IMG/VR virus record: IMGVR_UViG_3300030450_001823
Location: 33,236-97,235 of that record
Length of the DNA: 64,000 bases
Reading direction: 5' to 3' (one strand)
Source of the DNA: a virus
Below, one piece after another: positions 8,347 to 64,000 of the stretch (position 1 is the first letter of the stretch; each line of letters opens with the position of its first letter). A program made the position numbers and the translations under genes. Below the pieces are notes generated by a model. It was not told where the DNA came from and searched no databases. It saw only the letters and a list, made by a program, of their open reading frames with translations.

Positions 8347-8772
8347 TCACTCTCCCCTTAACATACCAATGGCCTTGTTGTATCTCCGAGCGAGACTCTC
8401 ATGTGGTTGCCTCTTTAGATTAGCATGTAAGTCGGCCAATTTCACTTGCCTTGCTTCGGGGTGTTCGTTGGCTCGTTGAATGAAATCAAAGTATTGTTCT
8501 CCTTCACGACGAGTCAAAGCATCAATTGCTGAGCCTACTTCGGGACCAAAGCGTTCATGGATTTCGTCTAAACTCACTCCCGTATCTTCTACCACATCAT
8601 GTAAGTAAGCGATGCGCTGTAGGTACGGGTCAGTGAAACCACTGGCAACATCCTCTACATGCGTCATGTAAGGTTGGTCTCCGTATAGTTGGTCACCGTG
8701 TGCTTGAGTAGCAAACTCGCGGGCTTCTTGGGGCATTTTCAGAATCCTCCAAGCCTTATCCATTGGTGTCAT
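8347..8772 (-). CDS. SpoT/MESH1-like HD-domain hydrolase with N-terminal AW tag, 141 aa
   Basis: This is a compact HD-fold metal-dependent phosphohydrolase of the RelA/SpoT/MESH1 hydrolase type, which removes pyrophosphate from (p)ppGpp or acts on related nucleotides. The metal-site residues are all seen: H38 (PYMTH), H58-D59 (YLHDV), E62-D63 (VEDT) and D114 (KLAD), and the surrounding FG-x-EV and LTR positions also match. No synthetase domain is present. Residues 4-14 (MDKAWRILKMP) carry the AW tag seen in other proteins here. The start ATG 8772 follows GGGGAG; the giant gene's stop is at 8778-8780. Its place among tail genes is unusual for a metabolic enzyme, so it may be packaged or injected; that is inference. 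Confidence 0.8.
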   Translation of the reverse strand: MTPMDKAWRILKMPQEAREFATQAHGDQLYGDQPYMTHVEDVASGFTDPYLQRIAYLHDVVEDTGVSLDEIHERFGPEVGSAIDALTRREGEQYFDFIQRANEHPEARQVKLADLHANLKRQPHESLARRYNKAIGMLRGE

Positions 8773-8777
8773 GCCAC

Positions 8778-11700
8778 TCACTCCCCGCTATGGTCTCCTG
8801 TATTATAAGATGCATCACCGTCACTACCCTTTGGATGCAATGTTTGACTGTACCTTGGCTGTACGCTGTAATCGCCTTCTTCATCATCAGGTGATTTACG
8901 ACTTGCATCTGCTCTAAAGTGTTCAAGTGTATTTTCAGTCATAACTACTCTCGCCACAGGTGAGCGTATGTCAGCCTTGTTATATCCTGTTACATCTACA
9001 CCCTGAATCTTAGGACCTTGGCTTGTAGGTACAGTTGTACTGGAAGTAGGGGTAATTGAGTAAACAGGTGCATACGGCGGGCTACTCGGAGTACCCGTTA
9101 ACGCACCCGGAGCATCACTTGTGAATAGCCCGTATTTACCTCCGGCTGTCGCTCTGTAAAAGTTAGAGCCGCCCTGTATAGTGTCATCCCCGTCAGTATC
9201 GTCAGCACTTATCACAGGCGCTGGTCTGAATAGTTGTACATGCTTGTTATCCAGCACTTGAGCAGGGCGATAAAGGAAATCAATTGTAGAATCAGTAGCA
9301 TTTGTATTTTGGAGAGTAGAGTCGTGGGCGGCGTTTTGATAAGGATTAGATGATGAAGAGGCCCCTGCTTGCCCCCAGCCCTTGACATCAAGTACACCTG
9401 CGTATCTGCTCCATTCCATAGCATATGTACCGCCCAAAGGCCAATAGGCATGCGCGTTGGAAATCCTAGTTATACCTGCCTTTGGATTAGATGAAAAGTT
9501 AAGGGCAGTTAAGTCAAAGTCAGTCAAAGTTCTACTTGCACCATCCATAGCCCCTCTTACGGTAGTTCTCTGACCTATTTCCCTGTCAGTGTGTAAACTC
9601 ACAGCCTCAGTTGACATAATTACATACTCTCTACTAACGCCTTCGTTCAGTTCTCCTATTGTATCTACATCAAGTCCTATTCTAACATCGTCTCTGCCAA
9701 CAGGCTCGGCCAAACGAGTATCAGCAGTGATAGTTTCAGTACCTTCTGCAACAGAAGCGCTTGGCTTGAGCAACCCATCTTCGCTAGCGACATCTAATCT
9801 AGCACTGATTCCTCTTTCAATCTCACCTGACTGCAAAGCCAAGTTACTTGGCCTCACCAAACCTTGGCCGAAGGCTGGCTCTGCTGTGCTATGAGACAAT
9901 ACTAGTCCGGTAGCCTCATGTGTTTCGCTGACATCCATTAGCATACTTTCATTGAATACTGTAGGCCAGCGGACCCCTCTACCATCTCCTCTGTCACCTA
10001 CTCTGAGAGCGCTGGCTGGGTTGAACCAATCCGCTACTCCCATGTTACTAGCGTCATTATTAGCGGTGTTAGCATTTCCACTTTGACGGTCGTTACCATC
10101 CCCTCCAAACAACGCATTAGCAGCAGGTCGGTGAGCGATATTAGTATCTGTATAAGCGTCTTCGGGGTCCCAAGCAGGGCGTATACCAAACCCTCTTACA
10201 GGGAAGCGCCTGACATCTTCTCCACGAGTATTGCCCCACCAGTCGACCATATAGTAGCGATGAGCATTAGCCAATTCGGATATATCTTTACCGGCATTGT
10301 CACCCGGATATTCTCTTCTGACAGTAGATGCATTTCTGATAGTTCTAACAGCACAGCCAAACGGTTGAGTCATTCTGCGACCATCGCTGTACCTTACTTG
10401 GCGACCAATTTGGTCTTGGTTGAGTAATGCACTAACTTGTGTTAACCTTTCCAAGATGCCGACATAAGAAGCGACAAAACTGACATCGCCCAAAGCAGTA
10501 TCGCTACCTACATAGTCCCAGCCGTTAGTCTTGTTATCTTGCTGTATAAGCGGGCCGTGATAATAGCCTAGTAGAGCGTTAGAATTAGCGACTTCTAACC
10601 AACCTCGGACATATTGCCCCCATCGTGGTCTATTATACGCCTGTCTAACTCCGAATCTATAACCAAAGCAATGGTTACGAGCATAAGGTGAAGCCACAGT
10701 AGCCTCATTGTATGTGCGGGTTCTGATACCTGTATTGTCATCAAATGTACCACAGTCCATACCGTATGTCTCCCCGCCCCAACCAATCAAAGAATCTCCA
10801 TATGCCTCTAATCGACTGACTGCTCCTCCTCCATGAGAGCCGCCCGGCCAAAAGCCAGCGAAGTTATATTTTTCACTAAGATAGAGTGCTTCGTTGTTTG
10901 TCAAAACCACTAATGTTCCGCCACCAAATGTGACTCCGTATGGAGCACTGCCGTCAACAGCCGTAAGTACACCGACTAAGATTCCAGCGGAATTGTATAC
11001 GCTATCACCTACTTGGAACTTAGTAGTAGGGTCAACTGCGTCTACAGGAATAGCGCTAGTAGTGTTAACGCTGTAGGTATTACTGGCACCTGACGGGTGA
11101 TTAATCAAAACACCACTACTTTCTGTACTACTTTCTACTCCACCTTGGTGTTTCAGATTAGTATCGAGGTCAATGACTGCGGCTGTATGAACTATGCCGT
11201 CAGCAGCGTTTGTAGGACTGGTGCCCCCTCCGGGTGGCGCTATCCAACTCATAGCGAATCCAAATGGACCTTTGCTCGCTACATAATTGAAATCTTGATA
11301 ATGAATTGTCTCAAAGTGCTCAGGTAGCATATTGTAAGGCTTCTTATCCAAAGGTGTATCTGCTGCTCCAGCCTTGGTATAGAAATTACGAGTACCACCG
11401 TCAGCAGTGTCACTATACCAAGTGAATGGTCTGCCGAGATTCGGATGCCACATGCATAAATATGCATCAGGTACATGTAGGCTGTTTGTATCTCTACTGC
11501 CGTTAGATATTTGAGGCAAAGCCCTTGTAATTATACTAGATAACGAATTAGTGAATACTTTGTCAGAGGAATGGTTGTCATAAGGTCTAGTCAGTTTTAT
11601 GATAGTGCCTGTTGCAATGTTAGCCCAAAACTCACCACTACCGCTGACAGTTGAGAATGTAACAGATGCACCTAATGTTGCATAAGCAAGAGTACCTGTT

Positions 11701-14700
11701 CTGTTTCCATAAGTAGCAGTGTACCGTACACCATCTTTGGTGTATTCTAACTTTTCACCATAATAAGGTACTACTGGGAATAAAGAGTTATCATCGACTG
11801 TTATTGTAGAGGAGCCGTTGTTAGATATTACTACACAAGTAGGATTTAGACTTCTGTTGCGCTTATGGACTTCGTAAATGTCTAGGAAAGAAGTTGGATA
11901 ACCACCTAGGGTTAACTGTGCGCCTACGCAACCGTATGATGCTCTGCAAAGTTCGTAGTAATTATCAGGCTTATGCCATTCTAGGTGTCTAAACTTGTCA
12001 GCACCACTTGCACCTGCTCCATCTTTGTGCAATATACCCCACCAAGGTACAGTAAGTGTATATCCGGGCGTAGCACTGCTAAACATACCCGGTCTGTAAG
12101 GTAGGCTTCTACGAGTAAGCGAAGGTGAACTAGTCTCTTGAACTCCAAGTGGGTTGTAAAGTGCCAAAGTAGGTAAATTAGTGAAATGGCTACCCGAATC
12201 AGGTTCAATGTCAAGTATAACTTCGTTTATTATTACTTCACAACCTCTGACATCTGCCATTATTGCATCTGCTAAAATCAGACTGTATGCGCCGTTTGTG
12301 TCAACATCTTGCTCAATGGCAATTACAGTATTCACTTGCTGCCCTGTTAATTCTACAACTTTAGTGCCGCTTTCAGAAGGTGCTTTGTTCTCAGTACTAT
12401 GGTTTAAGTGGAAACCTTTGATTTGCTGAGCAAATACATTCGGCTGTATCACAATCTGATAGGCCCCGACCTCCATAGGGTCAGGGAAATGGTTGTTGAG
12501 AGTATAAGTCCCACCTGCTTCTAATACAAGTTCGTGCCCACCTGCTGCGTTAGTAGTACCAGCAGCACCTAGAGACGCAGCAACTCCGTAACCTTCGTAT
12601 TTGATTTTAGTCTCAGTCAATAGAGTGAATGCCCCGCCGTGTATATCAGATGGTGAGAATGCAGCGGTTGGACCGGAGAAGTAAATGTAAGGGTCACGGC
12701 CCGATTCATGAGTGGTGGATGTAGCAGTTGTACTGGTTCTAGTACCTTCGTTGGTACCAATGAGGCTGTCAATCAAAGGTGCATTGTTAGAAGTTCTACA
12801 ACTTTGGTTTAACTCGTACAAGCGTTGGTAGGCCGGGTGAGCATAATGTCCGGGCATGAGTGCCATTGTCGGGCTAATGTAATGGTGACCCATACGAGGT
12901 ATAGGCATAGGTGTCATCTTAGGAGTCATTATGTGATTATAAGGTATAGAAGGATTAGTAGTCGCACCTGTATTCGCAGGTAAAGCAGCATATAGCGCGT
13001 ACCAATCAATTATCTTCATATCAGGACTAGCACCGCTGTACTCACTATGGTCCCTTAGTCGTCTTGCGCCAAAGAACCTAGTGCTACCCGCTGGCATATA
13101 GTAAGAAGGTACTATTTTCAGCAATGTACCCTCTGATATTTCCTTTTCTACAAATGTAGTAAAGTCAGGGCTATACACGACGCCTGTAAACTTACCACTA
13201 CCTATACCTGTATAAGAAACCAATACTCCTTCGTTAGTGGTATCATTGTACACTCTTAGGAAATATCTACCACCGCTTAATTCACTACTGTCAGTCCACA
13301 CACCTGTTTCAGGTGTAGCACTTACTGTTATTTCTGTACCACTATGACTTTGGTAATTTAACAACTGCGATGTCTCACGGTTAGTCATAGATACACCCAT
13401 ACGGGTGACATGGAAATACAAGTTTCTATCATGAGGCTCGTATGCTGTCTTAAGAGGAGAATTACTAGTATGGTCTTGCCACCCTTCTACAGTTGAAGCC
13501 GGGAACTTCAAGCGATTATCGCTCTTGGCCAAAGATACATCTACTCCGTCTTGACTTAAATGCTCCCAGCCGTTATTTTCCCAAGTAGGCCATAGTCTAG
13601 GACCTGAATACTTGTTATCGAACATGTCAGTAATATGCTGCACAGGCTGTGACGGGTGCTGTAGACCTCCTGAGCCTATAGTTTCACTTTGATACGCTTG
13701 TATACGGTCGAATCCGGGCCTAACGATAATGTTACCCGGTATTTCATCAGGGTTAGGTAATCTGATTTTCATATTAGGTGAAACACCTGTACCAGCAAGT
13801 GCAGGTGCCAGCCCCTCTATTTCCCTGTCACTTACATGTCTGAAATCCATGATAACGGTACCTAGAGGAGAGCCACCCTCAAGTCGGTGCTCTTGACCAG
13901 TATCGTCTATCACCATCATGCTTTGGAATTGCTTTTCCTCATTTGGTAACATTAGTGCGTTGCGGATTTCCATAGGGTGCTGCTCTGCTAATTGAGGGTG
14001 GGATAGTTCTTGGGCCTGTATGATTGGAAACATCGCTGCGTTAGTTGATTCAAAACTAAACCTAACATTACCAAGTACTTTTTCACCTTCAAGTAAGTAT
14101 TGCCCAGTAGAGGCTTTTCTCCTAACCCAAGGTATAGCACCGAGTCCTCTTGCATTAGCGGCTGGCATAGTTAGACTACCGCCATCCATTCGTTTCCAAA
14201 CCACATGTTCTGCTGAGAAATTACGAGCAGCAGAGCGAGTATTGTAATAGCCGAATAATCCATTATGCGGCATAGCAGTGCTCGACGCACCGGGGTTCAA
14301 GTAATCATCACTACCACTTACCCCTATACATTCTTTGCCATAAGTACCAAAGTCTTCATGGAAATTAGAGCCTTTAACAACGCTCTCATCCCAAAATAAA
14401 TCACCAGTAGGATTTAGACAGGCGTTGGCTTGTACCATTTTGCCCGACGCTATTGTATCGTGCCACTTATTGGCTGCTACGGCTGCGCTAGTGGCGGGAT
14501 AATCCCCTGCAACAGTTGGTCTCACAAAGTCCGAATGCACTTGTGCTTCTACACGAGGACCACCAGTTGCAGGGCCTAAGTAACGAGATTTGTTGTGAAC
14601 TTTAGAAGTGTCCCATTGTATTGTACCTGCATTGATAATGTTACTAGTCTCCTTCGTCATCAACCAGTCACCTGCACAAGTTACTCCGTCTCTGTCAGCC

Positions 14701-36282: not shown

Positions 36283-36726
36283 TCACCTTAGCCAAGCGTT
36301 ACCACTTGAATAACCCTGTTGTTTCAAAATAGACCAAGCGTCATCAAACGACTTGCGATACATAAAGTCAGGGTGACCTCCGTGAGGAGGCTCGCTTGGA
36401 GCAGGTGCCGCTGCTTCGGGTGGATAGCCTTGCTCTATTGCGGTTTGTTCTTCACCTGTGACATTAGGTTGATTCATTTGTGGTTCTTGGGCACCTTCGG
36501 GCACTCCATCTAAGAACTCAATACCGTGTGCTTGTGGATTAGCCATCGCTTCTTGGATTAAATTATCACGAGCCATTTGCCAGTCAGGACCTGCACGGTC
36601 TCCTCCAAGTTCTCCAACAGCCTCTGCTGCTTTTCTATTAGCCCACTTTCCTAATCTAGTTTGCTCACCGTCGACTAATATCTTTTGACGGTGTGGATTG
36701 GGTTGTTTCAAAATATAAACTGTCAT
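36283..36726 (-). CDS. Virion-associated protein with C-terminal AW tag, 147 aa
   Basis: An N-terminal basic strand region (MTVYILKQPNPHRQKILVDG), then a helical part (NLIQEAMANPQAHGIEFLDG), then a Pro/Glu-rich linker (AAAPAPSEPPHGGHPD) and, at the end, KSFDDAWSILKQQG. This last motif matches the AW tag of the protein at 55450 and of three small accessory proteins. It lies among head-completion genes, before the connector. A possible anchoring partner of tagged proteins; function unknown. Confidence 0.6.
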   Translation of the reverse strand: MTVYILKQPNPHRQKILVDGEQTRLGKWANRKAAEAVGELGGDRAGPDWQMARDNLIQEAMANPQAHGIEFLDGVPEGAQEPQMNQPNVTGEEQTAIEQGYPPEAAAPAPSEPPHGGHPDFMYRKSFDDAWSILKQQGYSSGNAWLR

Positions 36727-38447: not shown

Positions 38448-39626
38448 TCACTGTAGGTCACGAATTGAACCTTGACCTCCAAAGAAAGTAGTCCAAACTT
38501 CACCCATTGTGCGGTAAAGTCCTTCTTGCCCTAGTCTGTTAACAGCGAATGGGTCTCCAGTTTCGATACCGGACTCAAAGTATTGAGTTGGTTTCGCAGT
38601 ACTGTAGTATAGGTAGTCAGTGTCAAGCATGTAGATTCTGCTAATGCCGTCTGTCTGTACATCTTTAGATGGAATGATTGGGACACCGTTGTAAGTTGCG
38701 ACTATAAATCCAGCCTCAACACCCGGTACACCTTTTACACCGTTGTAAGTTGGTACAACACGCTTTTCCTCCATGAATCTCTGTTGAGATTGTAGAAGTT
38801 GCTGAATACGCATTAGAGTGTCATATCCTGTTAGCATAACCTTCGGGTTACCACCACGAATCCAAACCTTTTGGAAGATGGTATCCAAGTGGTCAAGACT
38901 TAGAGTACGGCGGTTACCTGCTGCTCTGTCACTACCACAGTCAACTTCTGCGTTAGACCAAGAGTTTGCTGCTTCACCTCGGTCAATGCTGTAGATGTCT
39001 AAATCGCTAGCGCCACAGTGGTCTGTACCTGATGATGCACCAGTTTCCATAGATGTTAGTCCACCGCTTGCTCCACCGTCGTTACCAGTAACTCTGTCAA
39101 GAGACTCGATGTTGTTACCTGCTGGTGTTTCACTGTCTTCTGTTAGCATTTGGTTGATGTGCTCTGCGTGGTGCTTACCCATTTCCTCTTTAAGGACTGA
39201 GCGAATGTCACCTAGACCGTCATCCTTGTCATTAAGGAAAATAGCGGTTTCGGACATATCGAATGTGTGTGCAATAGTCTTAGGCTTTGCTGCAACATGC
39301 TGGAATGTAGGCTTGGTTGTGTCCGGTAGGGTTGCATTTTCTGCAACTCCGCCACCAACAGATGTTGACGGCTTAGCGGTAACTACTCTCCAACCACTTC
39401 TGTCCCAAGGCTTCTTAGGCAGAATGGAGAATGCGTTGAACTCTTGGTTCAATTGACTCCAAACTTTGCGGCCATAAATTGCTTGGTATGTACCTGCGGT
39501 TGTGCTCAGCATTGGTGCATCTGCCTTTAGTAGTTCTGAACCACTGTAGGAATATCCCATGCTCTGTCCCGCGCCATAATAATAGCGCTCCATATCGTTT
39601 ACTGTTCTCATATAATTTCTTGCCAT
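38448..39626 (-). CDS. Major capsid protein (HK97-type fold), 392 aa
   Basis: The gene follows the prohead protease in transcription order, and its sequence has the character of HK97-fold capsid proteins. An N-terminal helical arm (MARNYMRTVNDMERYYYGAG) leads to a segment with IYGRKVWSQLNQEFNAFSIL. A helix follows (IRSVLKEEMGKHHAEHINQM), and the end FEAVNRLGQ-type region reads DPFAVNRLGQEGLYRTMGEV. Length 392 is typical. No N-terminal extension is obvious, and the fused scaffold may instead be on the protease. It starts at ATG 39626 after a 15-base gap. Confidence 0.85.
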   Translation of the reverse strand: MARNYMRTVNDMERYYYGAGQSMGYSYSGSELLKADAPMLSTTAGTYQAIYGRKVWSQLNQEFNAFSILPKKPWDRSGWRVVTAKPSTSVGGGVAENATLPDTTKPTFQHVAAKPKTIAHTFDMSETAIFLNDKDDGLGDIRSVLKEEMGKHHAEHINQMLTEDSETPAGNNIESLDRVTGNDGGASGGLTSMETGASSGTDHCGASDLDIYSIDRGEAANSWSNAEVDCGSDRAAGNRRTLSLDHLDTIFQKVWIRGGNPKVMLTGYDTLMRIQQLLQSQQRFMEEKRVVPTYNGVKGVPGVEAGFIVATYNGVPIIPSKDVQTDGISRIYMLDTDYLYYSTAKPTQYFESGIETGDPFAVNRLGQEGLYRTMGEVWTTFFGGQGSIRDLQ

Positions 39627-39641: not shown

Positions 39642-41036
39642 TTAATTCCATACACTCCCTGCTAGAGCGTGTACCTCATCCCAGTTCATGTTACCGAGTT
39701 CCTCTGTTGAAGGAATCTCTACGGTGGAGTTGTCTGTTGCTTTACGGATTTCTATACCTGCTGGTTTTGTAGCAAGGTCGTCAATTCTAGCACCGAGGTC
39801 AGCAATTGCTTTCTCGATGTTACTTAGTGGTGCACGAGCGTCAAACTCTGATGCTGCGCGAGCCTCTGCTTCGTAGTTAAGTTCCTTTGCAAGGCGGTCT
39901 GAAAATACATTGTTCAAGGAACCCTTGAATTGTTCTTCAAGAGCAGCAGCCTTGTAGACTTCGTATGCAGCCTCGATGTCAGTTGAACTGACATTGCTTG
40001 GGTGCAAGTAACCTTTCGATACACTCTTACCGGAATTAATCTTACCAAGTGCGCCAGTAGATGGGTTGCCACCTTCTTGCTCACGGTTCGCTGTCTGTCC
40101 CGACATTTGTGCCGTATCTATTTGCTCAGGTGTACTACCAAGGTTAGCCTTAGCGACATCGTCAAAGTGACTTCTTGCCGCACCAGTGTCAACGCCTTGT
40201 GATTTCAAGGTGTTTTCCATCCAGTTTAGGTATTCACTTGATATTACATCAGAGTATTCGCTCTTTTCCATATCATCGTATGCCTTTTTCTCTTCGTCTT
40301 TCATATCTTTCGCCTCATCTTTAGGTGCGTCATCTTTCTCATCCTTAGACTCGTCTTTAGCATCATCTTTGGATTCCATAAAAGGAGGAAGGTCGCCCTT
40401 CTCCATTGAATCCATATGTTTGCTCATTCGGTCTAAGACACTAGAAAGTTCTGCTAATGTTTCTGTTTCACTTGTCATATCTGTGTCCTCCTTCAATATA
40501 CGGAATGTCGCCTCCGGGTTAATACCTTTTTCACAAATAGTAACTTCATGCAGTTCCAACTTGGAGATTTCTGTATAGTCTCCGTGTTTATCATCGGCCT
40601 TACGCATTCTCTTAAACGCTTGACCTCCGATGCTGAAACCAGTTAGGTTACCTTTGCGAATATCATTGGCTACTTCACGAGCCTTTTCGATGTCATCTCT
40701 TAGTTGAATGACTACGAACATACCGGCGTCATCGACACCGGATTTCCACACACGACCGTCAGAGTCAGTGTATTGTGGTATTACACTACCAACCTGTATG
40801 TTAGAGTGTGCGAGTTGTACATTTCTAAAATCTTCTGCTTTCATAAAGTTACCAAAAGCGTCTTTTAGTGCTCCACGAGTGATTAGGTCTCCTTGCTTGT
40901 CAACCATTTCAACACTGGCATAACCAGCGATTACAAGGTCGTTACCTGCCTTAATGATACTGATATTCCCCTCGTGATGAACGGGGGAGGTTCTCAGTGA
41001 AAGTGAGGCGACCATGCTTCTATAGAGAATGACCAT
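39642..41036 (-). CDS. HK97-type prohead protease fused to an acidic scaffold-like domain, 464 aa
   Basis: The first 180 residues are a U35-type serine protease: H77 in VQLAHSN and S135 in LTGFSIGG, with the closing ELHEVTICEKGINPEATF. Proteases of this family cut the scaffold and capsid arms during maturation. After a Met/Ser stretch comes an acidic Lys/Asp/Glu region (DDAKDESKDEKDDAPKDEA), a helical part and a C-terminal MNWDEVHALAGSVW. The long tail probably acts as internal scaffold and is cut from the enzyme. The same MxWxx(V/I)HALA ending occurs in the 46936 protein. The start could also be a later Met (residue 8); upstream TATATAGTATGG is A/T-rich. Confidence 0.85.
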   Translation of the reverse strand: MVILYRSMVASLSLRTSPVHHEGNISIIKAGNDLVIAGYASVEMVDKQGDLITRGALKDAFGNFMKAEDFRNVQLAHSNIQVGSVIPQYTDSDGRVWKSGVDDAGMFVVIQLRDDIEKAREVANDIRKGNLTGFSIGGQAFKRMRKADDKHGDYTEISKLELHEVTICEKGINPEATFRILKEDTDMTSETETLAELSSVLDRMSKHMDSMEKGDLPPFMESKDDAKDESKDEKDDAPKDEAKDMKDEEKKAYDDMEKSEYSDVISSEYLNWMENTLKSQGVDTGAARSHFDDVAKANLGSTPEQIDTAQMSGQTANREQEGGNPSTGALGKINSGKSVSKGYLHPSNVSSTDIEAAYEVYKAAALEEQFKGSLNNVFSDRLAKELNYEAEARAASEFDARAPLSNIEKAIADLGARIDDLATKPAGIEIRKATDNSTVEIPSTEELGNMNWDEVHALAGSVWN

Positions 41037-49461: not shown

Positions 49462-50769
49462 TCATAATCCCTCCGACCAACTCATGACCGTATCTTTATC
49501 CACTCCCCAATCTTTCAAAGACTCTTCTGCTTTTCTAGTACCTTCTCTGTTAGAGAATTGAACAAATCTCTTTAGTTCTGTTTTACGCATAGGGTCTTTT
49601 TCATTTATGAAAGCAGCAACCGCTTTGGCTTGCATATCTTTCATTCTTAGGTGTGGAGTAATCTTTTTCAATAACTTAGTCAAGTCATCTTTGGAATAAA
49701 AACTAACACGGTGCTGGCTACGCTGCCCATCTTTGTACACTTTTTGGTCTAACTGTAACTTACCTGCACCTATGTTTTTGTGAAGTTGTTCACAGTGCAT
49801 ACGACCTCTATCGCCTGTAGCAATAAAACCTGCACGAGGTTCTCCTCTTTCTGTAATAGTAATGTAACCGTCAGCATCAAGGAACCCTGCTGCATAAGCC
49901 CAAGGGTCTTTGATGATAAGCCCAGTACGGTTTAGAGTCATATATTCACCTTTACGAGGCGCTTTGATAATGTTAATCTCTTCACCATACATTTTGAGTA
50001 ACTTTGCTATTCTATTTACATTCAAGCGAGGTACGCCTTTGTGAATCAAGTTTTCAGTTATTCCTCTTGCGTTTATCGAACCATGTTCTTCTATCTCAGC
50101 CTTAGCCATGTTAAGCCATTTTTGCTGCTCTTTGTTTAGATTGTCAAACTGATTGAGAGTGTTTTTCCACATTTTACGAGCATCTTTACGCATTTGCATA
50201 GCATTAACCCAAGACTGCCTCTCTTCATCACCCCATACATCTTGAAACTCATCAAGTGTTTTAAGTGTGCTTTCTGCATTTTCCCAAGTATTACATGCTC
50301 TAATTAGACTATTTTCTCGACTATTACCGAATAATCTAAGCGACTTAAGTGACTTGTCGTCAAGACCTATGCTTCTAATAGTATCTTCATAAGAAGAAGC
50401 CCAATCTAATTTGGCTAATGTAGCCTCGGTTTCTAACGCCTTTAGATTTCTAACAGCAGTAATCATTTTATCAATATCACCTTTAGAATCTTTCATAACT
50501 CTACGGGCTTTTCTAAGTTCTTTGATAACATTACTTGCGCTCTTTCCAAGAGATGACTCAAACCAACTGTCACCGGTAGGGCAAAATGGAGCATATGTCA
50601 CTTGTGGAATGTCATCTTCTTTGATAATAACAGTCTGAGATGCAATAGACTTAGCAATGTTAGAATCTACAAGAGGATGACTGGTTAAACTAGAGGCAAT
50701 TATAGACAAAACATCATTGCCCATATCCAAACTTTGGACTGGCTCTCCTACCCCTAATGATGCCCACAT
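49462..50769 (-). CDS. LAGLIDADG-domain protein fused to a long N-terminal helical region, 435 aa
   Basis: The C-terminal 150 residues hold a single LAGLIDADG motif, WAYAAGFLDADGYITI at about 290-303, followed by a beta-strand/helix order and basic residues typical of homing endonucleases. Only one motif is present, so it would act as a dimer. The N-terminal 270 residues are helical (FDNLNKEQQKWLNMAKAEIE) with a winged-helix-like LIHKGVPRLNVNRIAKLLK before the motif. It lies between the portal and TerL, and no intron or intein is evident. It could be a domesticated endonuclease working in packaging, or a freestanding selfish gene; both are inference. Confidence 0.7.
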   Translation of the reverse strand: MWASLGVGEPVQSLDMGNDVLSIIASSLTSHPLVDSNIAKSIASQTVIIKEDDIPQVTYAPFCPTGDSWFESSLGKSASNVIKELRKARRVMKDSKGDIDKMITAVRNLKALETEATLAKLDWASSYEDTIRSIGLDDKSLKSLRLFGNSRENSLIRACNTWENAESTLKTLDEFQDVWGDEERQSWVNAMQMRKDARKMWKNTLNQFDNLNKEQQKWLNMAKAEIEEHGSINARGITENLIHKGVPRLNVNRIAKLLKMYGEEINIIKAPRKGEYMTLNRTGLIIKDPWAYAAGFLDADGYITITERGEPRAGFIATGDRGRMHCEQLHKNIGAGKLQLDQKVYKDGQRSQHRVSFYSKDDLTKLLKKITPHLRMKDMQAKAVAAFINEKDPMRKTELKRFVQFSNREGTRKAEESLKDWGVDKDTVMSWSEGL

Positions 50770-50807: not shown

Positions 50808-52289
50808 TCAAGCGACGAACCAAGCCCCTGCTACATTATTTTGTTCAGACTCACCAAACAGGCTATCAAATCCGGGCATGTAGTCATCTAGCGCAACTAC
50901 ATTTCCTCGGAACTCTTTGGTAGCCCAATTAGCCAGTGCTAGGCTCATAGCCAAGTCATCATGGGAGCCTACAGATTCAAGTCTGCCGTTTTTCTGCATT
51001 CCAAATCGACTAAGTTGAGTCTCAAGAGTACGAGTATATTCTTTACTTTGTTCATTGCCCCAAGGAGTTTTAATCTTACCTTGCTCAAATGCCATCAATA
51101 ATGACATAAACATACTTTCCTTGCGTTGCTTTGTTGTCATAAAGGTCTTGATAGGTATATCATCCCTCATCTCTTGTAACTCAGCGGCAAACATTCTTTG
51201 AAAGTTATTACCTTCAAGTTCAATTAAGTCAGGTTGAAAACGATTATTCAGTAAAACTATTTGTCGCTTTTGAGCAGCACCGCCTAGTCCTTTTTCATTC
51301 AAAGCATAAATGACTTGTTTATCTTCGCTATCCGGCAATGTTCTAAGTATAGTCATAGCAGTGTAGTCAGCATTAGCATCAGATGCAATTGCAGGGTCCC
51401 ATCCGATAAAGTGCTGACCAAATACACCAGCCGCTTCTCCTTCTTCATCAAACTCTTCTTCTGCTCTGTCTAATAATATCAGTTCGCTATCTCTTGCTTT
51501 TTCAAGAAGTGACATAGGAAACATACTAGACATGTCGTGGATAGGCTCACAAAGATATTCACGAGCGAATCTAATCGCTGGCATAGATTGTTCACGAACT
51601 TTCAGTGCATCTAAAGGCCATCTAGTAGGCCAAAGAGGTTCTCCCAATGCATTTATTGCAGGGTATGTCTCAACTCTAAAGGCATCTTTGTCTTCCAGTT
51701 CTGCATACAAGTCGTTGTAACTAAAAGGAGTACCGACCATCATAAGACGACCTGTGTGGTGCAGAACTGGAAGTAAGACAGTATAGAACCAATCTGCTGC
51801 TCTTTGTAATTCAGAAGCAGTGGTACCCCAAAGAATATCGTCACATACAACTACATCAGGGTGAAACCCACGAGTTGCTCCACCAACGGACTTAGCCATC
51901 ATACGGCTACCGTTAGTGAACTCAAAGTAAGACTTAGCCCAAGGTTTTCCACCACTGGGTTTCAAATGCCTAAGAACATCGCTACTTTCTATGTTATTAC
52001 GGATAAACCGCATGTGTTCAAGGGTCTGTTCTAAACTGTGACTGAATATCATAATGTGGGTTTTAGGATTAAAGGCAGCAATCCAAAGAGCATAACTCAT
52101 AAAAAATACAGACTTGCCGTGGTCACGACTTGCCTTTACACAATATCTGTTACTTTCTACTAATCCTTCTTCCCAGCACTGGTGGTGGTCCGAGTAGTCG
52201 AATTGTAAAATCTCAGTAAAGAAGTATTTGAATGACTTTTTGCACATTTGTATGTCAATGTCGTTGACGAGTTCATCCACATTTCCCAC
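50808..52289 (-). CDS. terL: Terminase large subunit (TerL), 493 aa
   Basis: TerL is the packaging motor and nuclease. The ATPase shows SRDHGKS at residues 54-60 (Walker A-like), VVVCDD at 146-151 (Walker B) and VGTPFSYND (motif C). The RNase-H-like nuclease begins near 295 with FIGWDPAIASDANADY, where the aspartates bind metal. A later D-D-L-A-M (SHDDLAMSLALA) is the usual last catalytic site. Length is typical. The gene follows a Pro/Gln-rich virion protein by 6 bases and is separated from the LAGLIDADG gene by 38 bases. Confidence 0.95.
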   Translation of the reverse strand: MGNVDELVNDIDIQMCKKSFKYFFTEILQFDYSDHHQCWEEGLVESNRYCVKASRDHGKSVFFMSYALWIAAFNPKTHIMIFSHSLEQTLEHMRFIRNNIESSDVLRHLKPSGGKPWAKSYFEFTNGSRMMAKSVGGATRGFHPDVVVCDDILWGTTASELQRAADWFYTVLLPVLHHTGRLMMVGTPFSYNDLYAELEDKDAFRVETYPAINALGEPLWPTRWPLDALKVREQSMPAIRFAREYLCEPIHDMSSMFPMSLLEKARDSELILLDRAEEEFDEEGEAAGVFGQHFIGWDPAIASDANADYTAMTILRTLPDSEDKQVIYALNEKGLGGAAQKRQIVLLNNRFQPDLIELEGNNFQRMFAAELQEMRDDIPIKTFMTTKQRKESMFMSLLMAFEQGKIKTPWGNEQSKEYTRTLETQLSRFGMQKNGRLESVGSHDDLAMSLALANWATKEFRGNVVALDDYMPGFDSLFGESEQNNVAGAWFVA

Positions 52290-53333: not shown

Positions 53334-55450
53334 CAGAATACACCTCCAAATGCGACTTTAACAGCCTTTACTATCTCAGGTTTAACACTCCATTCGTCAG
53401 CAACTTTGTACCAATCACCTTGGCTTTGATAAAGACCGTGCACATCTACTCCGGTGAGGCCGAGGCTTTTAGCAATGTCTTGTACATCCCAATAAGAATC
53501 AATTGAAAGCGCACGATTAGGTATCATTTTTGTAATATCTTTATCTTGACGAGCATCCATTATCTGAACTAACTCAATCTTTTTGCGTATTTCGTCTAAA
53601 TTAACCAAAATATCATCTGAGCGCTGTACCAAAGCACCGGAGCCAATATCCCAAAGTTGTTGCCTAGGGTCCATCCCTAACCTATTACCGAAGTATTGTT
53701 CTTCAAAAGGAGCGGCAGGTCTTGTAGGATAAGCAGCAGGGGCTGCTGCTGTAGGAGTAGGCATTACTTGTTGAGGCATAGGTGCAGCAGGTGCAGGTGC
53801 AGGTGTAGGTGCAAGAGGACCGACTGCTACTTTTTCTCGTTGAGGAACTGGCATTTCTCTACGAGCATTAGAAGCAGGTGCTAGGTCACTAGTACCTACG
53901 ATTCTTTTTTGCCAGTGCTCAGGTACTTCTGTATGGGTTTCGCCAAAGCCGTGTGGCAAACCACCAGCAATATGCTCAGTAGGAACTGAGCCAAGATTAA
54001 ACTTTTCATGACCTTGTGCCCCCATAATTCTACCAATTAGGTCTTCTGTTTTTTCACGCAGTCCTTCTACCGGAGCGTATCTTGACTTTTGACTTTCGTG
54101 CGCTCTTAAATTAGTAGCCGCTTGCTCAAGTGCCTGTTCTTCACTCATACCTTGTTGCATATACTTACCTGCAAGGTTACTCAAATGACCGACAATATCG
54201 GCTGCTCTGATATTAGCAGTTTTATGATAAGAAGGACCTTCGGTAGAAACAGCGGCTTTAGCATTAGAGCGGTGTAATTTATATTCTTCATCAGTATGAT
54301 GACTACCTAATTCTCTAAAGGTGTTATTAATAGCAGTTTTAACAGCACCTCCGCCACTACCTTCTAGGTTATGAGTTCGACTAAAAAATAACTTCATAGC
54401 CATTGTACCAGCCATTTGGTTTAACTCTTCGGGAGAATAGCCTTCTGTACTAACACCTGCTTGTTGCATAACACTTGCTAGTTGTTCACCAGCAGAAACA
54501 GGGTCCTCTTCACCTCCCTTTGGTCTACCTCCACCACTACCAGTAGCACCGTGATAAAATACATCAGGTAAAAGATGAGCGACTTGATGAGCATGTATGT
54601 CGCCGTGAGTTCTTTGAGAATCTAACTGACTTCTAACTTCGGGATGTAAATAATTATCAGGAGAAGTACCACTTAATCCAGCCTTTGCTGCGTCTGTTTT
54701 GTTCCAAGATACTACCAAATCATTTGTTAAATAGTTAGGCTTGAGTACAGAGTACTTAACATAAGGTAACCTTTTGTACTCATTTGGTGGCACACCTGCT
54801 GCTGCTAATTCTTCTCCAATCTCTTTGTGAAAATGAATGTGCCCACCATCAATCCAAGAACCTTGGTCTGCGCCGGTTTCAGGGTCTACATTTCCCATGT
54901 TCATTGAATATGTAACTAAAGGTCTAGGTCCTCCTTCGTAAAGAGGGGTGTCGCCTCTAATTTGCCTTTCCTCGGCGGGAGTCTTAGGGTCGATGTAATC
55001 ACCGGCAAATGTTTTTCTCCATTCAGGACTTTCAAATGGAGGCAAACCATGATTTGTATCACGAGGGTGTTTCATATTATATCTGTCAATAGCATTGTTA
55101 ATAATTTGAGTAGCAGATTCAGGTCCGTATTTTTCAGACAAGTCCTTGTGCACATAATCAATCGGGTGATGACCAAAGGCAGTACCGTCTTGATTATTTA
55201 TCAACTGCCCAGTTTGAGGATTATGCGACCAAGGAGGGTGGTCGGGTTCATTTGGGTCAGGATTAATTGCATCTTCGGGTGCCCATGAGTGAACAAACCC
55301 TCTGTTATTTTCACCACCTACTCGATAATGTAACAAACCACTCTTGCGAATATCCATTGACTCAAGATAAGCCTTTAGAAAAATACCTGAGCCGTAAGTC
55401 TTGGCTTGCTTTTTGAAATAACTATGGGCAGGTTGGTGAACTCTAAACAT
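53333..55450 (-). CDS. Large virion-region protein of unknown function, 705 aa
   Basis: A mixed protein without a recognised family. N-terminal half: GENNRGFVHSWAPEDAIN, then His- and Pro-rich parts (DPNEPDHPPWSHNPQTGQLI), then WIDGGHIHFHKEIGEELA. Middle: helical (TYSPEEL-like, YSPEELNQMAGTMAMKLFFS). A Pro/Ala-rich hinge (APTPAPAPAAPMPQQVMPTP) precedes a C-terminal helical part ending VKPEIVKAVKVAFGGVF. His-rich segments could bind metal. Its place between the low-complexity protein and the AW-tagged protein, coupled by one-base overlaps, suggests a head or ejection component. Function not known. Confidence 0.5.
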   Translation of the reverse strand: MFRVHQPAHSYFKKQAKTYGSGIFLKAYLESMDIRKSGLLHYRVGGENNRGFVHSWAPEDAINPDPNEPDHPPWSHNPQTGQLINNQDGTAFGHHPIDYVHKDLSEKYGPESATQIINNAIDRYNMKHPRDTNHGLPPFESPEWRKTFAGDYIDPKTPAEERQIRGDTPLYEGGPRPLVTYSMNMGNVDPETGADQGSWIDGGHIHFHKEIGEELAAAGVPPNEYKRLPYVKYSVLKPNYLTNDLVVSWNKTDAAKAGLSGTSPDNYLHPEVRSQLDSQRTHGDIHAHQVAHLLPDVFYHGATGSGGGRPKGGEEDPVSAGEQLASVMQQAGVSTEGYSPEELNQMAGTMAMKLFFSRTHNLEGSGGGAVKTAINNTFRELGSHHTDEEYKLHRSNAKAAVSTEGPSYHKTANIRAADIVGHLSNLAGKYMQQGMSEEQALEQAATNLRAHESQKSRYAPVEGLREKTEDLIGRIMGAQGHEKFNLGSVPTEHIAGGLPHGFGETHTEVPEHWQKRIVGTSDLAPASNARREMPVPQREKVAVGPLAPTPAPAPAAPMPQQVMPTPTAAAPAAYPTRPAAPFEEQYFGNRLGMDPRQQLWDIGSGALVQRSDDILVNLDEIRKKIELVQIMDARQDKDITKMIPNRALSIDSYWDVQDIAKSLGLTGVDVHGLYQSQGDWYKVADEWSVKPEIVKAVKVAFGGVF

Positions 55451-57057
55451 CAGCCGACCCTCCCACTACCTCTTGCTGCAAACATAGTAGAAGGTGCGCC
55501 CCAGTTCTTAGGGTCATTTTCCATATCTTCTGTGGCACCTTCGTTTCTAGTAGTACTATCTTGGCCTTCTCGATGCCCTGCCTCTCTATTTTGACCGGGA
55601 CCTGCTGAAACAGCAGCCTTGTTATGTCTATCTCTATTTTCCATAGATTCTTTCATGCGTCTAAGTAACCTACGCATTTGGGCAAAGTGCATGTAATCCA
55701 TTTTTTTAGAAACTTCATCTAGTTGTTTTTTAACTTTAGTCAAGTCATCTGACTTAGCCAAAGACTGACCCATTAATTTAGGAGCAGTTGGTGCTCTAAT
55801 ACTCAACCCTTCTCCAGTACTTATCTTAGGAGGTTTAGGATTATATGTTCTTTCAGAACTTAAGCCGTGACCTGACATCGGTTGAGGTATGTTACCCATT
55901 AATTTACGACGAGCCACAGTACCCATTTGGTGTCTATACTTTTCAGGAAATAACTTGAGAGGTTGCTTTGTAGAAACACCAAGGTGGCTCATATGAACAG
56001 AAAGAGGACTACGCATAAGTCCATGCTTTTTACTGGGTTGTAAATATCTTGAGTGTAACTTAGAGCGACGAGAAGTAGCAGTAGATATGTTAGCACCACC
56101 GGGCTGAATACGGAATAGCGGCTGAGTCCAAGGTTTCAATTCTTTGCCACCAACTTTGTCAAGTCTACTTTTTATCAAACTACTCCAAGCGTCATCAATT
56201 GGCTCGCCTGTAGAAACCGTATTGTCATGAGCCGTACCAGCAAGTGGAGAAGCAGGTGCGCCACAATCAGGGCAAGGTTGGCTTAGAATCTTACCTTGAC
56301 AAGTAGGGCATTGTGGAAGGAGTGGGTTAATAGTCTGTACAGGAGGTCTTTTGTACCTACGCATAGTAGGTGACTCGTCTACTCTGTCTTTCATCAAACT
56401 CGACCAAGCGTTATCAATTGGCTCGCCTGTTGTAAAATAATCAGGGTCACCGTGAGCATCGCGTCTAATCATTCCCCGCCTTTGCTCACTTTCTCGCATT
56501 TCTATTACAGGCTCAGCAGCCAATCTCCTAAGTCTGTTAATTTCTGCTTGAGGGTCAATAGGAGGAGGTCTTCTACTAAACTTCTCGTCAGGAACTTCGT
56601 CATCTTTTTCTTCATTATCGTCTTCTTTCATAAGACTAGACCAAGCATCCTCCATCGGCTCACCTGTAGCAAGCATGCCGCCCGGTGCTGGCATTGTACC
56701 CGTTGCGTTACCAATACTGAGATTACCAGTATCAGGCATACCGGTCATTGCGCTGAGTTGATTACCTTCTTGATATTGGTCAGCCATAGGGTCTTCTTCT
56801 TCTTCCTCTTCCATACCCGGCATCATAGGTGGCATCTCAGGCTCAGGTTTAGGAACTTCAATAGTAAGATGTGGTAAATCAGAAGCCTGTGTTTCTGCAT
56901 CTTTTTCAGCAATGCGCTTATCCTTCGCTGCCTCCATCGCTTCGGGGTCACCTATACCATAAGTGTAATCGTCTTCATCCTTGGTATAACCAAGCATAGA
57001 CTCAGAACGAGGACTATACATCCTTGTATCAGAACCTGTACTCATATTACCCGGCAT
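55450..57057 (-). CDS. Virion-region protein with three AW tags and a zinc ribbon, 535 aa
   Basis: Acidic, low-complexity N-terminal part, then three copies of one motif: TGEPMEDAWSSLMKEDDNE near residue 129, TGEPIDNAWSSLMKDRVDE near 208 and TGEPIDDAWSSLIKSRLDK near 281. Between the second and third lies a CPTC...CPDC zinc ribbon. The C-terminal part is basic and helical (KKQLDEVSKKMDYMHFAQMR). So it looks like a scaffold with three identical docking peptides. Single versions of the peptide appear in other proteins of this genome (see findings). No enzyme domain seen. It overlaps the 705-residue gene by one base. Confidence 0.6.
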   Translation of the reverse strand: MPGNMSTGSDTRMYSPRSESMLGYTKDEDDYTYGIGDPEAMEAAKDKRIAEKDAETQASDLPHLTIEVPKPEPEMPPMMPGMEEEEEEDPMADQYQEGNQLSAMTGMPDTGNLSIGNATGTMPAPGGMLATGEPMEDAWSSLMKEDDNEEKDDEVPDEKFSRRPPPIDPQAEINRLRRLAAEPVIEMRESEQRRGMIRRDAHGDPDYFTTGEPIDNAWSSLMKDRVDESPTMRRYKRPPVQTINPLLPQCPTCQGKILSQPCPDCGAPASPLAGTAHDNTVSTGEPIDDAWSSLIKSRLDKVGGKELKPWTQPLFRIQPGGANISTATSRRSKLHSRYLQPSKKHGLMRSPLSVHMSHLGVSTKQPLKLFPEKYRHQMGTVARRKLMGNIPQPMSGHGLSSERTYNPKPPKISTGEGLSIRAPTAPKLMGQSLAKSDDLTKVKKQLDEVSKKMDYMHFAQMRRLLRRMKESMENRDRHNKAAVSAGPGQNREAGHREGQDSTTRNEGATEDMENDPKNWGAPSTMFAARGSGRVG

Positions 57058-58344: not shown

Positions 58345-58348
58345 AGTA

Positions 58349-58993: not shown

Positions 58994-59004
58994 TTTATTC
59001 ACCT

Positions 59005-60048: not shown

Positions 60049-60055
60049 TTCCTCC

Positions 60056-60778: not shown

Positions 60779-60786
60779 AATATCAC

Positions 60787-61035: not shown

Positions 61036-61041
61036 AAAGAA

Positions 61042-61617: not shown

Positions 61618-61632
61618 AATAGTCCCTCTCAC

Positions 61633-61766: not shown

Positions 61767-63068
61767 TCACTCTTCTTTTTCGTCTTTTTCAGAGTCAAGT
61801 TTCATACGCTTACCATCCTTTGATGGTCCGGGTCCGGCTTTGCTACTAATTACAATAACCATACCATGAGCGGGCTTCTTACTATCTTCCTTTTTGTTCT
61901 TGTATTCTTTACAATTACAGTTCTTTTTACCACATGCAGGGCAAACTGCCTTGTACATTATATCTTCTGCTTGTTTTAACATTCTTTCTCCTATTTTCAT
62001 ATTCTCACCTTTTGTTGCCTTTTCACCCATGCCAAATCCTCCGCCAAATTGCATAGTGTTCTCTTTACCAGTCCAAATGTCTTGAAGACCAGTTCTGTTA
62101 CTGAATTGATTATCCACGCCACCAATGTCAGTACCTTCGCCAAAGCCACTAGCAGCACCGCCTGTATTACTTTGACCAAAACCACCGCTACTAGCACCAC
62201 CATAAGCACCAAAGCCGGAGGTATTTGGGTCAACTGAATAGTCATCTGCCATATTTTGTGCAAAGTAAGGTGCTAACAAACCTGCTACAGGTCCAGCCAA
62301 TTGCGTTGCTCTACCAGCAGCACCCATCACACGACCCATAGGCTGCGTAGGTCTGAAACTAGTAGGACTATTACCGTATGTGGTCAAACGATTACCTAAC
62401 TTACTTTCAAGAGGTGCTGTATAACGAGCGGCTTTATCAGAAACTTGTTGAACTTTTGCTTGGTGCTGCATAGCGGGAGTAACAGCGGGTTTAGTCATAA
62501 CCGTATTCCTTTGTAACCAAGTCGGGCCTCGCGTTCCTCTACCAATTCCATATTGAGCAGGTCTTCCACTAAACTGACTAACAGGACCAACATCGGCTGC
62601 TGCTTCTGCTCTTGCAGCCGCTATCCTACCCCGATTAATACCGTCTGTTCTTGCAGCGAGTCTACCACCTGCTGTTCTTGCAAGTGGTTTTGAAACTCCC
62701 GCAGCCCCTAGTCCTCTTGCTGCTGCACCTGCTCCTCTTACATAGGTAAAAGGATTAATCGCTTGGGTAGCACCAGTCGCCGCTCCACCGAGTAAATCAT
62801 ACCACTCAGGGTCTTCAACTTCATGCCTACCAAGATAGCCTCCTGTAATAGGGTCTTCATACCGAGCCTTTTCTCCAATACCACCAAAAAACTTCTTATC
62901 AGGGTCTCCCCAAGCGTCAAAGCCATGCATACCTGCGCCTCGTGCAGCACCGTATGCTCCAAACGCTAAAGGAATAAGGGGTAAAAACTTCTCAACCTTG
63001 TCAGGGTCATTTGTCTGTTTTAAGACAGCCCAAGCAGCGTCACTCGGTGACAAATCTGACTTCGACAT
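61767..63068 (-). CDS. Gly/Ala-rich virion protein, possible DNA-ejection protein, with AW tag, 433 aa
   Basis: The start ATG 63068 gives MSKSDLSPSDAAWAVLKQTN, an AW tag near the N-terminus. Then a hydrophobic Gly/Ala stretch (FLPLIPLAFGAYGAARGAGM), an Arg/Ala-rich part (GRIAAARAEAAADV) and a long Gly-rich tail (GFGAYGGASSGGFGQ). Near the end a CPACGKKNCNC zinc knuckle precedes a basic, Lys-rich C-terminus. The amphipathic Gly/Ala content is like ejection or pilot proteins that insert in membranes. Two earlier starts (63095, 63074) are possible; their ribosome-binding sites are worse. Role is inferred. Confidence 0.55.
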   Translation of the reverse strand: MSKSDLSPSDAAWAVLKQTNDPDKVEKFLPLIPLAFGAYGAARGAGMHGFDAWGDPDKKFFGGIGEKARYEDPITGGYLGRHEVEDPEWYDLLGGAATGATQAINPFTYVRGAGAAARGLGAAGVSKPLARTAGGRLAARTDGINRGRIAAARAEAAADVGPVSQFSGRPAQYGIGRGTRGPTWLQRNTVMTKPAVTPAMQHQAKVQQVSDKAARYTAPLESKLGNRLTTYGNSPTSFRPTQPMGRVMGAAGRATQLAGPVAGLLAPYFAQNMADDYSVDPNTSGFGAYGGASSGGFGQSNTGGAASGFGEGTDIGGVDNQFSNRTGLQDIWTGKENTMQFGGGFGMGEKATKGENMKIGERMLKQAEDIMYKAVCPACGKKNCNCKEYKNKKEDSKKPAHGMVIVISSKAGPGPSKDGKRMKLDSEKDEKEE

Positions 63069-63252
63069 GTACATTCCCACTGCCTCTGTTTTCATAAGCC
63101 TGTCGCAAAAAACGATAATGGTCTACTGCATTCATCAATAATGAAATGTTTTCCCAAGAGTCTTTTTTGTCTACAAACGCATCAAGGTGCATAATATCTT
63201 TTTCTGACTGTTTTAACATATCAGTCAGTAGTATGCTCCACCAATCTTCCAC
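63040..63252 (-). CDS. Small helical protein with variant tag, 70 aa
   Basis: MEDWWSILLTDMLKQSEKDI at the start looks like a variant of the AW tag (D-x-W-x-x-L), but the A is W and the spacing differs, so I do not count it as a full copy. The rest is helical and polar (LMNAVDHYRFLRQAYENRGS). It overlaps the next gene by 29 bases and follows the 88-residue gene by 20. No family recognised. It could regulate or partner the ejection protein. Confidence 0.5.
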   Translation of the reverse strand: MEDWWSILLTDMLKQSEKDIMHLDAFVDKKDSWENISLLMNAVDHYRFLRQAYENRGSGNVHVEVRFVTE

Positions 63253-63272
63253 GCTTACCCTACCGTGTGATA

Positions 63273-63539
63273 TTACTTAAGCGTGCCTCGCTCTTTGAAA
63301 TGACGAGCACGGTTTGCATGAGGGTCTTCTGCGACCATAGTGCCTTCTTTGGTATGACTCATATCAGGACCACCTTGCCCATAAATACCACGCTTACGAC
63401 GCTCTTGGTTCAAAGACTCACGATATTTGACTCTTTCAGGATTAGATTCATATTTTTTATCATACTCTACTTTATGACGCAGTGCTTCGGGAGAAGAAGC
63501 ATGCTTTAACATACGCCAAGCGATGTCGAAGGCAGTCAT
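63273..63539 (-). CDS. Small basic protein with N-terminal AW tag, possible degenerate HNH-type, 88 aa
   Basis: ATG 63539 follows GAAGGTGA and gives MTAFDIAWRMLKHASS, a clear AW tag. The rest is very basic (YESNPERVKYRESLNQERRK then RGIYGQGGPDMSHTKEG), ending NRARHFKERGTL. The sequence order of KY-ERxK, DMSH and NRARH is like phage HNH-type or NUMOD-like proteins, but the His-rich catalytic pattern is not complete, so a nuclease call is weak. A GTG six codons upstream is the other start. It lies one base after the GNAT-like gene. Confidence 0.5.
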   Translation of the reverse strand: MTAFDIAWRMLKHASSPEALRHKVEYDKKYESNPERVKYRESLNQERRKRGIYGQGGPDMSHTKEGTMVAEDPHANRARHFKERGTLK

Positions 63540-63540
63540 C

Positions 63541-64000
63541 TCATTGTTCACCTTCACTCACCCCGACATGGCCTTCATCTTCCATTTGACTCCAAAATTG
63601 GTGAGCGTTGCCCTCGCCAAGTATTTCATCCCGACTCACATACGGCTTGAAATTAGGGTATCGGGCTTGTATCTCCGCAATCATTTCCAATAATCGTTCT
63701 CTCCCCAAACCTTGTCCTTGTAATTGATGTGGAATCCCAAAAGCATGAATCAATCCCTCTTTGGTTGCACTTCCTCTTGCATCATCCGGTTCAGAAGTCC
63801 AACCAATATCGCCTTCTTTTGTATTGCTAAGGTCATGCAGAAAATCATCCAAAACACCTTCTTGTGGGTGGGTCTGTTGATTCCATGTTTTAGGGGCCTT
63901 TTCGCCTCTTTCATACAAAGGCATCTTGAGCAACCGCCAAGCGAGGTCCATAGGTTCGCCTTTGTTGTAACCTCGTTTTTGTTGAAGGACAGGGACCGGA
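63541..64000 (-). CDS. GNAT-like acetyltransferase domain with AW tag, 5' end outside the window
   Basis: The frame is open to the right edge. An ATG at 63951 would give 136 residues, but in-frame codons just before it read GYNKGEP, and GEP-MDLAWRLLKMP matches the GEP-tag of the 535-residue protein, so the gene probably begins further upstream. The tag is followed by a flexible part and a GNAT-like core: PHQLQGQGLGRERLLEMIAE fits motif A (Q/R-x-x-G-x-G/A), where acetyl-CoA binds, and NAHQFWSQMEDEGHVGV fits the last helix and strand. The upstream strands are not clear. Proposed: tagged acyltransferase carried in the virion. Confidence 0.55.
   Translation of the reverse strand, partial: PVPVLQQKRGYNKGEPMDLAWRLLKMPLYERGEKAPKTWNQQTHPQEGVLDDFLHDLSNTKEGDIGWTSEPDDARGSATKEGLIHAFGIPHQLQGQGLGRERLLEMIAEIQARYPNFKPYVSRDEILGEGNAHQFWSQMEDEGHVGVSEGEQ

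Follow-up and report, generated by a model that had tools for sequence, protein, structure and literature searches.

A shared ten-residue peptide in late proteins of an uncultured virus

The stretch of DNA analysed here (the window) is the 64,000-base end portion of a virus record 97,235 bases long (IMG/VR IMGVR_UViG_3300030450_001823, positions 33,236 to 97,235), and several of its proteins share a short peptide, hereafter the tag. The ten-residue core reads P-[MFIL]-[DE]-x-A-W-x-[LIV]-L-K, in which W can be replaced by F or M, mostly in copies that lie between the modules of a longer protein. N-terminal copies are preceded by S, T, N or D in 94 of 166 cases, and in inter-module copies the residue ahead of the core is most commonly E (106 of 171), itself preceded by G or S.

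The initial annotation had pointed to eight sites with an AW motif, and all eight are present, on the minus strand. The HD hydrolase-like protein of 144 residues (8347..8781; Pfam HD_4, E = 5.4e-07; phrog_990, E = 2.9e-35) bears PMDKAWRILK at its N-terminus (8737..8766; matrix score 30.2). In the morphogenesis block, a 147-residue protein (36283..36726) has SFDDAWSILK (36322..36351) at its C-terminus, 22 residues from the protein end. Three copies of the sub-variant AWSS-L-[MI]-K sit inside a hub-like protein of 535 residues (55450..57057), namely PMEDAWSSLM(K) at 56629..56658, PIDNAWSSLM(K) at 56392..56421 and PIDDAWSSLI(K) at 56173..56202. Near the N-terminus of a 442-residue Ala/Gly-rich protein (61767..63095), labelled by eye as ejection-like, stands PSDAAWAVLK (63018..63047). 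AFDIAWRMLK (63504..63533) marks the N-terminus of a basic protein (63273..63557; phrog_6437 body, E = 4.4e-19), which has 94 residues counted from a GTG codon and 88 from an ATG. The remaining site, (GE)PMDLAWRLLK (63925..63954), most likely lies between modules in an open reading frame (ORF) cut by the contig end (63541..64000), whose module is called GNAT-like by motif only and has no Pfam match. Beyond the window, the record holds a ninth tag close to the N-terminus of a 270-residue kinase-like protein (L003:16544-17353, minus strand).

The tag exceeds chance in related records

A tag matrix was built from seeds in tag-rich loci and applied with a threshold score of at least 13 to ten records of 73-109 kb. 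It gave 95 matches, compared to none in the reversed proteins and 0.7 per shuffled proteome; the seeds came partly from the ten scored records, such that 36 of the 95 matches repeat a seed exactly and the other 59 differ from every seed. W or F occupies the aromatic position in 87 of the 95. Ninety lie on the late strand, defined as that of the large terminase (50808..52289, minus strand in the window), and the five on the early strand all represent one conserved decamer, PFDEAxALAK, which lacks W and was excluded from the tag. This decamer recurs in nine of the ten records, always on the early strand (G000:29348-30388, plus strand, and an ORF of about 795 residues in most others); its likeness to the tag may be a coincidence or a distant echo.

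Pattern counts agree with the matrix. In nine records retrieved by terminase alone, the DNA-level pattern for A-W-x-[hydrophobic]2-K yielded 57 matches where its backwards control gave 1; the figures were 68 and 1 in thirteen records fetched by the tag and hence biased. A strict tag pattern matched 39 times in nine virus records, seven of which have any match, with none backwards; it matched once in 145 genomes (1.2-2.3 Mb each) from the order of a Poseidoniales metagenome-assembled genome (MAG). Mimicry of a host peptide is not supported by this single strict match or by the loose pattern, which gave 13 matches versus 8 in the control in one Poseidoniales genome. As the loose scan also returned clearly unrelated proteins (a tape-measure-like ORF, for example, turned up in 13 of the 80 loci printed), the counts given here use stricter patterns or the matrix. 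Altogether, the tag pattern is real, strong and lineage-wide among the records examined. No such tag was found in the literature examined, which is no proof of absence.

Tagged genes are confined to the late strand and belong to many families

For the protein-level analysis, matches of the final matrix were kept if they had W or F at a score of at least 17, which dropped 27 of 120. The tagged genes thus defined lie on the late strand in 79 of 79 cases, versus 526 of 1064 untagged ORFs as delimited by a crude ORF caller; restricted to ORFs of at least 150 residues, the counts are 58 of 58 versus 256 of 472. No tag of this quality is found on the early strand. Among the 27 dropped matches, which lack W/F or score below 17, 15 lie on the late strand and include three plausible M or T variants. 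Tagged genes also cluster: six records have 7-10 motif matches packed into 4-8 kb. The kinase-like gene stands alone among early-strand genes, and in five records with a similar setting it is late-oriented although all six larger neighbours are opposite.

With the tag masked, the 79 proteins fall into 43 families (E < 1e-4, ten records), and one tag sits on a protein of 60 residues. The first 30 residues hold 55 of the 93 tag matches, compared to 14.7 expected if evenly spread. Another 31 matches are internal, 14 of them of the 535-residue type, and 15 listed ORFs, two of which are the same ORF, carry at least three tags between unlike segments. A simple N-terminal signal peptide or a translation signal was ruled out by the C-terminal and inter-module tags. 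The conserved residues A, L, K and P are encoded by differing codons; selection therefore acts on the peptide.

The tag appears to lie outside the folded bodies of its carriers

In Vibrio, Pseudomonas and Nodularia phages the homologues of the HD protein have no tag, nor do those of the 94-residue protein in Synechococcus phages, and in both cases the homology begins at or after the tag position (eight records read, out of 418 with a match to the HD protein and 21 with a match to the 94-residue protein). Together with the ART-fold model described below, these homologues bear out well the proposal that the tag sits at ends or in linkers and not in folds. The nine close HD relatives in viral contigs all have the strict tag directly ahead of the HD body, as expected if the motif is kept with the rest of the protein. 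Eight of them are solo proteins, and the ninth, L340, is an HD body fused behind an HExxH-type segment through the linker SEPFDQAWTLLK. Among distant HD relatives, the 21 read (30 of 80 loci were read in all) have no tag in the first 75 residues.

The 535-residue protein shows the most consistent tagging. One tagged family member occurs in each of the ten records, and all 48 distinct full-length orthologues retain the tag, 45 of them by a lax pattern and three as AF variants read by eye, so that a check for motif loss in this family came out in favour of the tag. The suggestion that it is a tripled relative is not supported, as the tag number varies from one to three and the body forms a family of its own. 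A role as hub or core protein is possible. In the 442-residue family, 18 of the 21 orthologues that reach the N-terminus have an AW-type motif in the first 60 residues, one of which (L008) is spurious, and two of the three without the motif begin within 32 bases of the locus edge. Both homologues found for the 147-residue protein are tagged. As a separate observation, the C-terminal part of the 442-residue protein includes MVIVISSKAGPGPSKDGKR, and a GMVIVIG-type stretch appears again close to where other ORFs begin (L246, L248), which raises the question of whether it might be another shared short motif.

For the 94-residue body the same check for loss counts against a universal rule. The strict tag is found in the ORF of 38 of 80 loci, just upstream of the body in 26, downstream in 5 and elsewhere in 7.

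The GNAT-like tag had been placed at the N-terminus of its protein. It is most likely an inter-module copy instead, because the frame stays open up to the contig end at 64000 and the residues upstream of the tag (PVPVLQQKRGYN) match the end of another module in the very close relative L252, which has a longer ORF with tags separating its modules. The GNAT-like module is thus probably the last one of a tag-linked polyprotein. A search with its body matched the window's own locus only. An iterative hidden Markov model search with the GNAT-like protein strayed because of the tag itself, and its matches were not taken as homologues.

Putative enzymes among the tagged proteins

The best structural clue to the nature of the tagged proteins comes from L335, whose HD protein is 94% identical to that of the window. 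Directly after the tagged HD gene it encodes a further tagged protein (L335:3423-3848), the AlphaFold model of which has a pLDDT (predicted local distance difference test score) of 72 and a pTM (predicted template modelling score) of 0.64. A Foldseek search related the model to KptA/Tpt1-type ADP-ribosyltransferases (ART) with an E-value of 1e-4 and a probability of 1.00, and alignment to the best solved structures gave a Z-score of 10.9 and a root-mean-square deviation of 2.4 over 89 residues, covering model residues 33-139 (start at 32-33). On this model the protein is assigned an ART fold. The tag forms a helix (residues 6-19) outside the ART-fold match. After the tag and ahead of the ART-like domain there is a second stretch, RQTxLGEFHPDxPSxxGPV, which with variants appears in several tagged proteins (L104, L335, L421, L130, L327 and L266).

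In the 270-residue kinase-like protein, the Gly-loop, K, D..N and D columns, recognized by eye, are invariant in seven sequences. A viral scan with this protein found no tagged relative beyond one record, and six came from records fetched otherwise. In addition, DUF5872 was detected in 3 of 65 tagged proteins, phrog_6437 in three, and a ParB-like match in one (4.8e-4).

Genome layout and lineage of the record

In the 97-kb record, two modules run in opposed directions. The minus (late) strand encodes an SU10-type capsid protein, an S78 prohead protease, the terminase and other structural proteins, and the plus (early) strand encodes a thermosome and other early proteins. The major capsid protein (38448..39626, minus strand; SU10_MCP, E = 3.5e-08; phrog_24667, E = 1.3e-54) serves as a lineage marker. 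Next to it lies the prohead protease (39642..41036, minus strand; Peptidase_S78, E = 1.4e-10), which has a long C-terminal extension and is a candidate tag processor. The virus-encoded thermosome, a chaperonin (3339-4835, plus strand), has its best cellular match in a Candidatus Poseidoniales MAG, at 41% identity (11 loci found). Magrovirales are tailed viruses of Poseidoniales with genomes of 90-110 kb and opposed replication and morphogenesis modules (International Committee on Taxonomy of Viruses profile of Apasviridae, PMC12999244). Since its size, opposed modules and host signal fit this description, the record very probably belongs to Magrovirales, viruses of marine archaea. A search for terminase relatives in cell genomes found none.

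The link between tag and lineage was examined in a tag-selected sample. A start-codon-exact tag scan returned at least 118 stretches, 80 of them listed, from which 33 records of at least 30 kb, mostly not yet fetched by terminase, were taken. Terminase is present in 23 and the capsid protein in 24 of the 33; of the nine records with neither, eight have the viral thermosome. Two further tag-selected records have the capsid protein and the thermosome, respectively. Because 34 of these 35 records carry at least one of the three marker genes, the tag is close to a hallmark of one virus lineage among the records listed.

Several neighbouring genes show features of their own. An ORF of 5723 residues (8778-25949, minus strand) takes up more than a quarter of the window and is directly followed by the tagged HD gene. 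Between the presumed portal gene (588 residues) and the terminase, a 435-residue protein (49462-50769, minus strand) has a C-terminal stretch that by eye resembles a homing-endonuclease (LAGLIDADG) domain. The prohead protease ends in NMNWDEVHALAGSVWN, which is similar to a stretch, TMEWADIHALADKAK, located towards the C-terminus of a 124-residue protein (46936-47310, minus strand). A pattern for this stretch matched 36 ORFs; 29 of the 30 printed are a protein of 122-130 residues, with the stretch 24 residues from the end, and the other is a protease-sized ORF of 465 residues. The two proteins possibly share a capsid- or scaffold-binding helix.

A proposed docking peptide for virion proteins and its alternatives

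We propose, with a probability of roughly 0.6, that the tag is a transferable docking peptide of one lineage of tailed viruses of marine archaea, which would mark late proteins to be built into the assembling particle. The sequence [STND]-P-x-[DE] is a classic helix start, or capping box. The N-terminal form of the tag often begins like such a cap, and both AlphaFold models (L335 and the low-confidence kinase-like one) place the tag in a helix, which suggests a docking peptide that folds as a short, probably amphipathic helix whose A, W and L point to the same side. The tags on the cargo, the 535-residue protein and the ejection-like protein would all be bound by a single partner in the procapsid core. 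The cargo would comprise the ART-fold protein, the HD hydrolase, GNAT-like, kinase-like and HExxH proteins, and small basic proteins, and enzymes would turn into cargo by gaining the peptide N-terminally, C-terminally or as a spacer in a chain of modules. The tagged effectors would thereby be enclosed in the particle and later be injected with the genome to act early on the host; cleavage at the [GS]E-P linkers may also occur. A docking or packaging role, as had been suggested, is the best reading of the 79 of 79 late-strand genes and of the 48 of 48 tagged orthologues of the 535-residue protein; the part of it that places the tagged proteins inside virions goes beyond these counts. Our wider proposal is more tentative and falls slightly short of an even chance: the tag may be a position-independent peptide code of the whole virus order, in which acquiring it, whether at one of the ends or as one bead of a polyprotein, would turn any protein into virion cargo, such that takeover enzymes could be swapped by means of ten residues and the tag would predict the injected arsenal.

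Several observations weigh against these proposals. That tagged proteins are most likely loaded into the virion is itself something we infer. The C-terminal tag matches are not in excess, 7 observed versus 9.9 expected. Of the 80 loci of the 94-residue body, 42 are without the strict tag; some of these are cut by the locus end, degenerate (e.g. EPMDIALRLLK) or from other phages, but some twenty appear to be genuinely without a tag, which is hence not obligatory for this body. Among the dropped matrix matches, 12 of 27 lie on the early strand, nine of the 12 being the PFDEAxALAK decamer or close to it. The assignments of the putative cargo are uneven as well: the best rows of the Foldseek search with the ART model have TM-scores of only 0.44-0.50, the kinase-like model is poor (pLDDT 48) with no fold match and leaves the kinase fold unconfirmed, the GNAT label has Pfam E-values of 0.011 and 0.07, and the HExxH label was given by eye without Pfam support. 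A Pro after Glu is moreover an odd cleavage site. In the available text on the giant phage SPN3US, its prohead protease is described as cutting after A-X-E with a preference for Ser at P1' (PMC10052503).

Most of the same data could be read differently. The tag might dock late proteins elsewhere on the particle or where assembly takes place, such as at the tail, a fibre like the 5723-residue protein, a membrane or an assembly focus, rather than in the head interior. The late-strand bias and the 535-residue family fit this equally, and the HD gene adjoins that of the 5723-residue protein; yet effector-like cargo such as the ART-fold and HD proteins is most sensible if delivered inside cells, and T4 internal proteins and phage-type polyvalent proteins are, in the accounts available, known or predicted to be packaged in the head. 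We regard this location as unlikely. Short W-anchored helices commonly serve as degrons or partner-binding motifs, and the tag, which is kept on enzymes, could accordingly be such a peptide in the infected cell, for instance for a host late factor, unrelated to the particle. Its presence in the 535-residue, ejection-like and 147-residue morphogenesis-block proteins, on the late strand only, makes this improbable.

Recruitment of client proteins to the viral thermosome for late-phase folding appears a shade less probable still. A chaperonin gene lies in the window, 9 of 10 tag-selected records where no capsid gene was found have one too, and T4 propeptides are said to recruit chaperonins in the part of PMC10052503 at hand; but thermosome, capsid and terminase may simply share a lineage, several tags in a seemingly low-complexity protein and one on a 60-residue protein are unlike folding clients, and tags with W/F at a score of at least 17 are missing from the early strand. 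The tag as a DNA-level recombination seam, which would shuffle modules and have no function in the protein, accords with polyproteins of irregular spacing and exchanged modules. It was rejected on the codon variation, and the retention of the tag at gene starts and ends likewise speaks against it, which leaves a seam a very slim chance.

Relation to known systems and implications

The closest known counterpart of the proposed docking peptide is the capsid-targeting sequence (CTS) of the T4 internal proteins IPI-III, which according to the available part of PMC9026906 brings foreign fusions into the head too; the same text describes the first ten residues of IPIII as sufficient for head incorporation, and Alt, an ART, as a head protein. 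Tag-driven head loading is possible given the precedents of the IPIII peptide and Alt. As in T4, a peptide of about ten residues is common to otherwise unrelated late proteins, here across 43 families. In contrast, the T4 sequence is, as far as the consulted text goes, an N-terminal propeptide of a few proteins that is removed by the prohead protease, whereas the present tag is N-terminal, C-terminal or internal in the 43 families of the ten records. Judged from the sequences, the tag may work like a CTS; we do not class it as one, because it is not confined to N-termini and both loading and cleavage are predictions.

Polyvalent proteins are chains of unlike effector domains, including ART, kinase, GNAT, zincin and ParB domains; those of phages are encoded close to late genes and are presumed to enter the host along with the DNA (Iyer et al. 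2017, PMC5512222, in the sections available). Similarly, the tagged genes are encoded with late virion genes. The 15 listed ORFs with three or more tags hold unlike segments and L340 joins an HExxH-type module and an HD body, which may or may not amount to several unlike catalytic domains in one polypeptide, as the domain labels are weak (GNAT, E = 0.011 and 0.07; one ParB-like match, 4.8e-4). The difference is that here one repeated peptide joins the segments and also labels stand-alone proteins, and none is mentioned in the available sections of PMC5512222. The head proteins of SPN3US and phiKZ-type phages are processed by a prohead protease, and the head carries ejected proteins (PMC10052503, available part). 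Most propeptides described there have 111-254 residues (two have 20 and 24), and that part of the source reports no shared ten-residue tag.

Outside the tailed phages, encapsulin cargo-loading peptides offer a further comparison, in which a short terminal peptide directs enzymes into an HK97-fold shell. The present case differs in being a DNA virus with many cargo families, and the comparison is one of description. Altogether, the tag is best read as a docking peptide that would load effectors into the virion, akin to T4 capsid targeting combined with polyvalent proteins.

If the proposed role is true, the tag would constitute a cargo code of general use among ocean viruses that metagenomes alone have revealed, and the injected effectors of an uncultured virus could be read straight from its sequence. 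The principle of T4 targeting would then reach archaeal viruses and cover tags at C-termini and between modules, and a small peptide would be at hand that can be transferred to other proteins in order to load them into a capsid. Among the tag-selected records, 34 of 35 of which carry a marker gene, the tag would serve in addition as a marker of the lineage.

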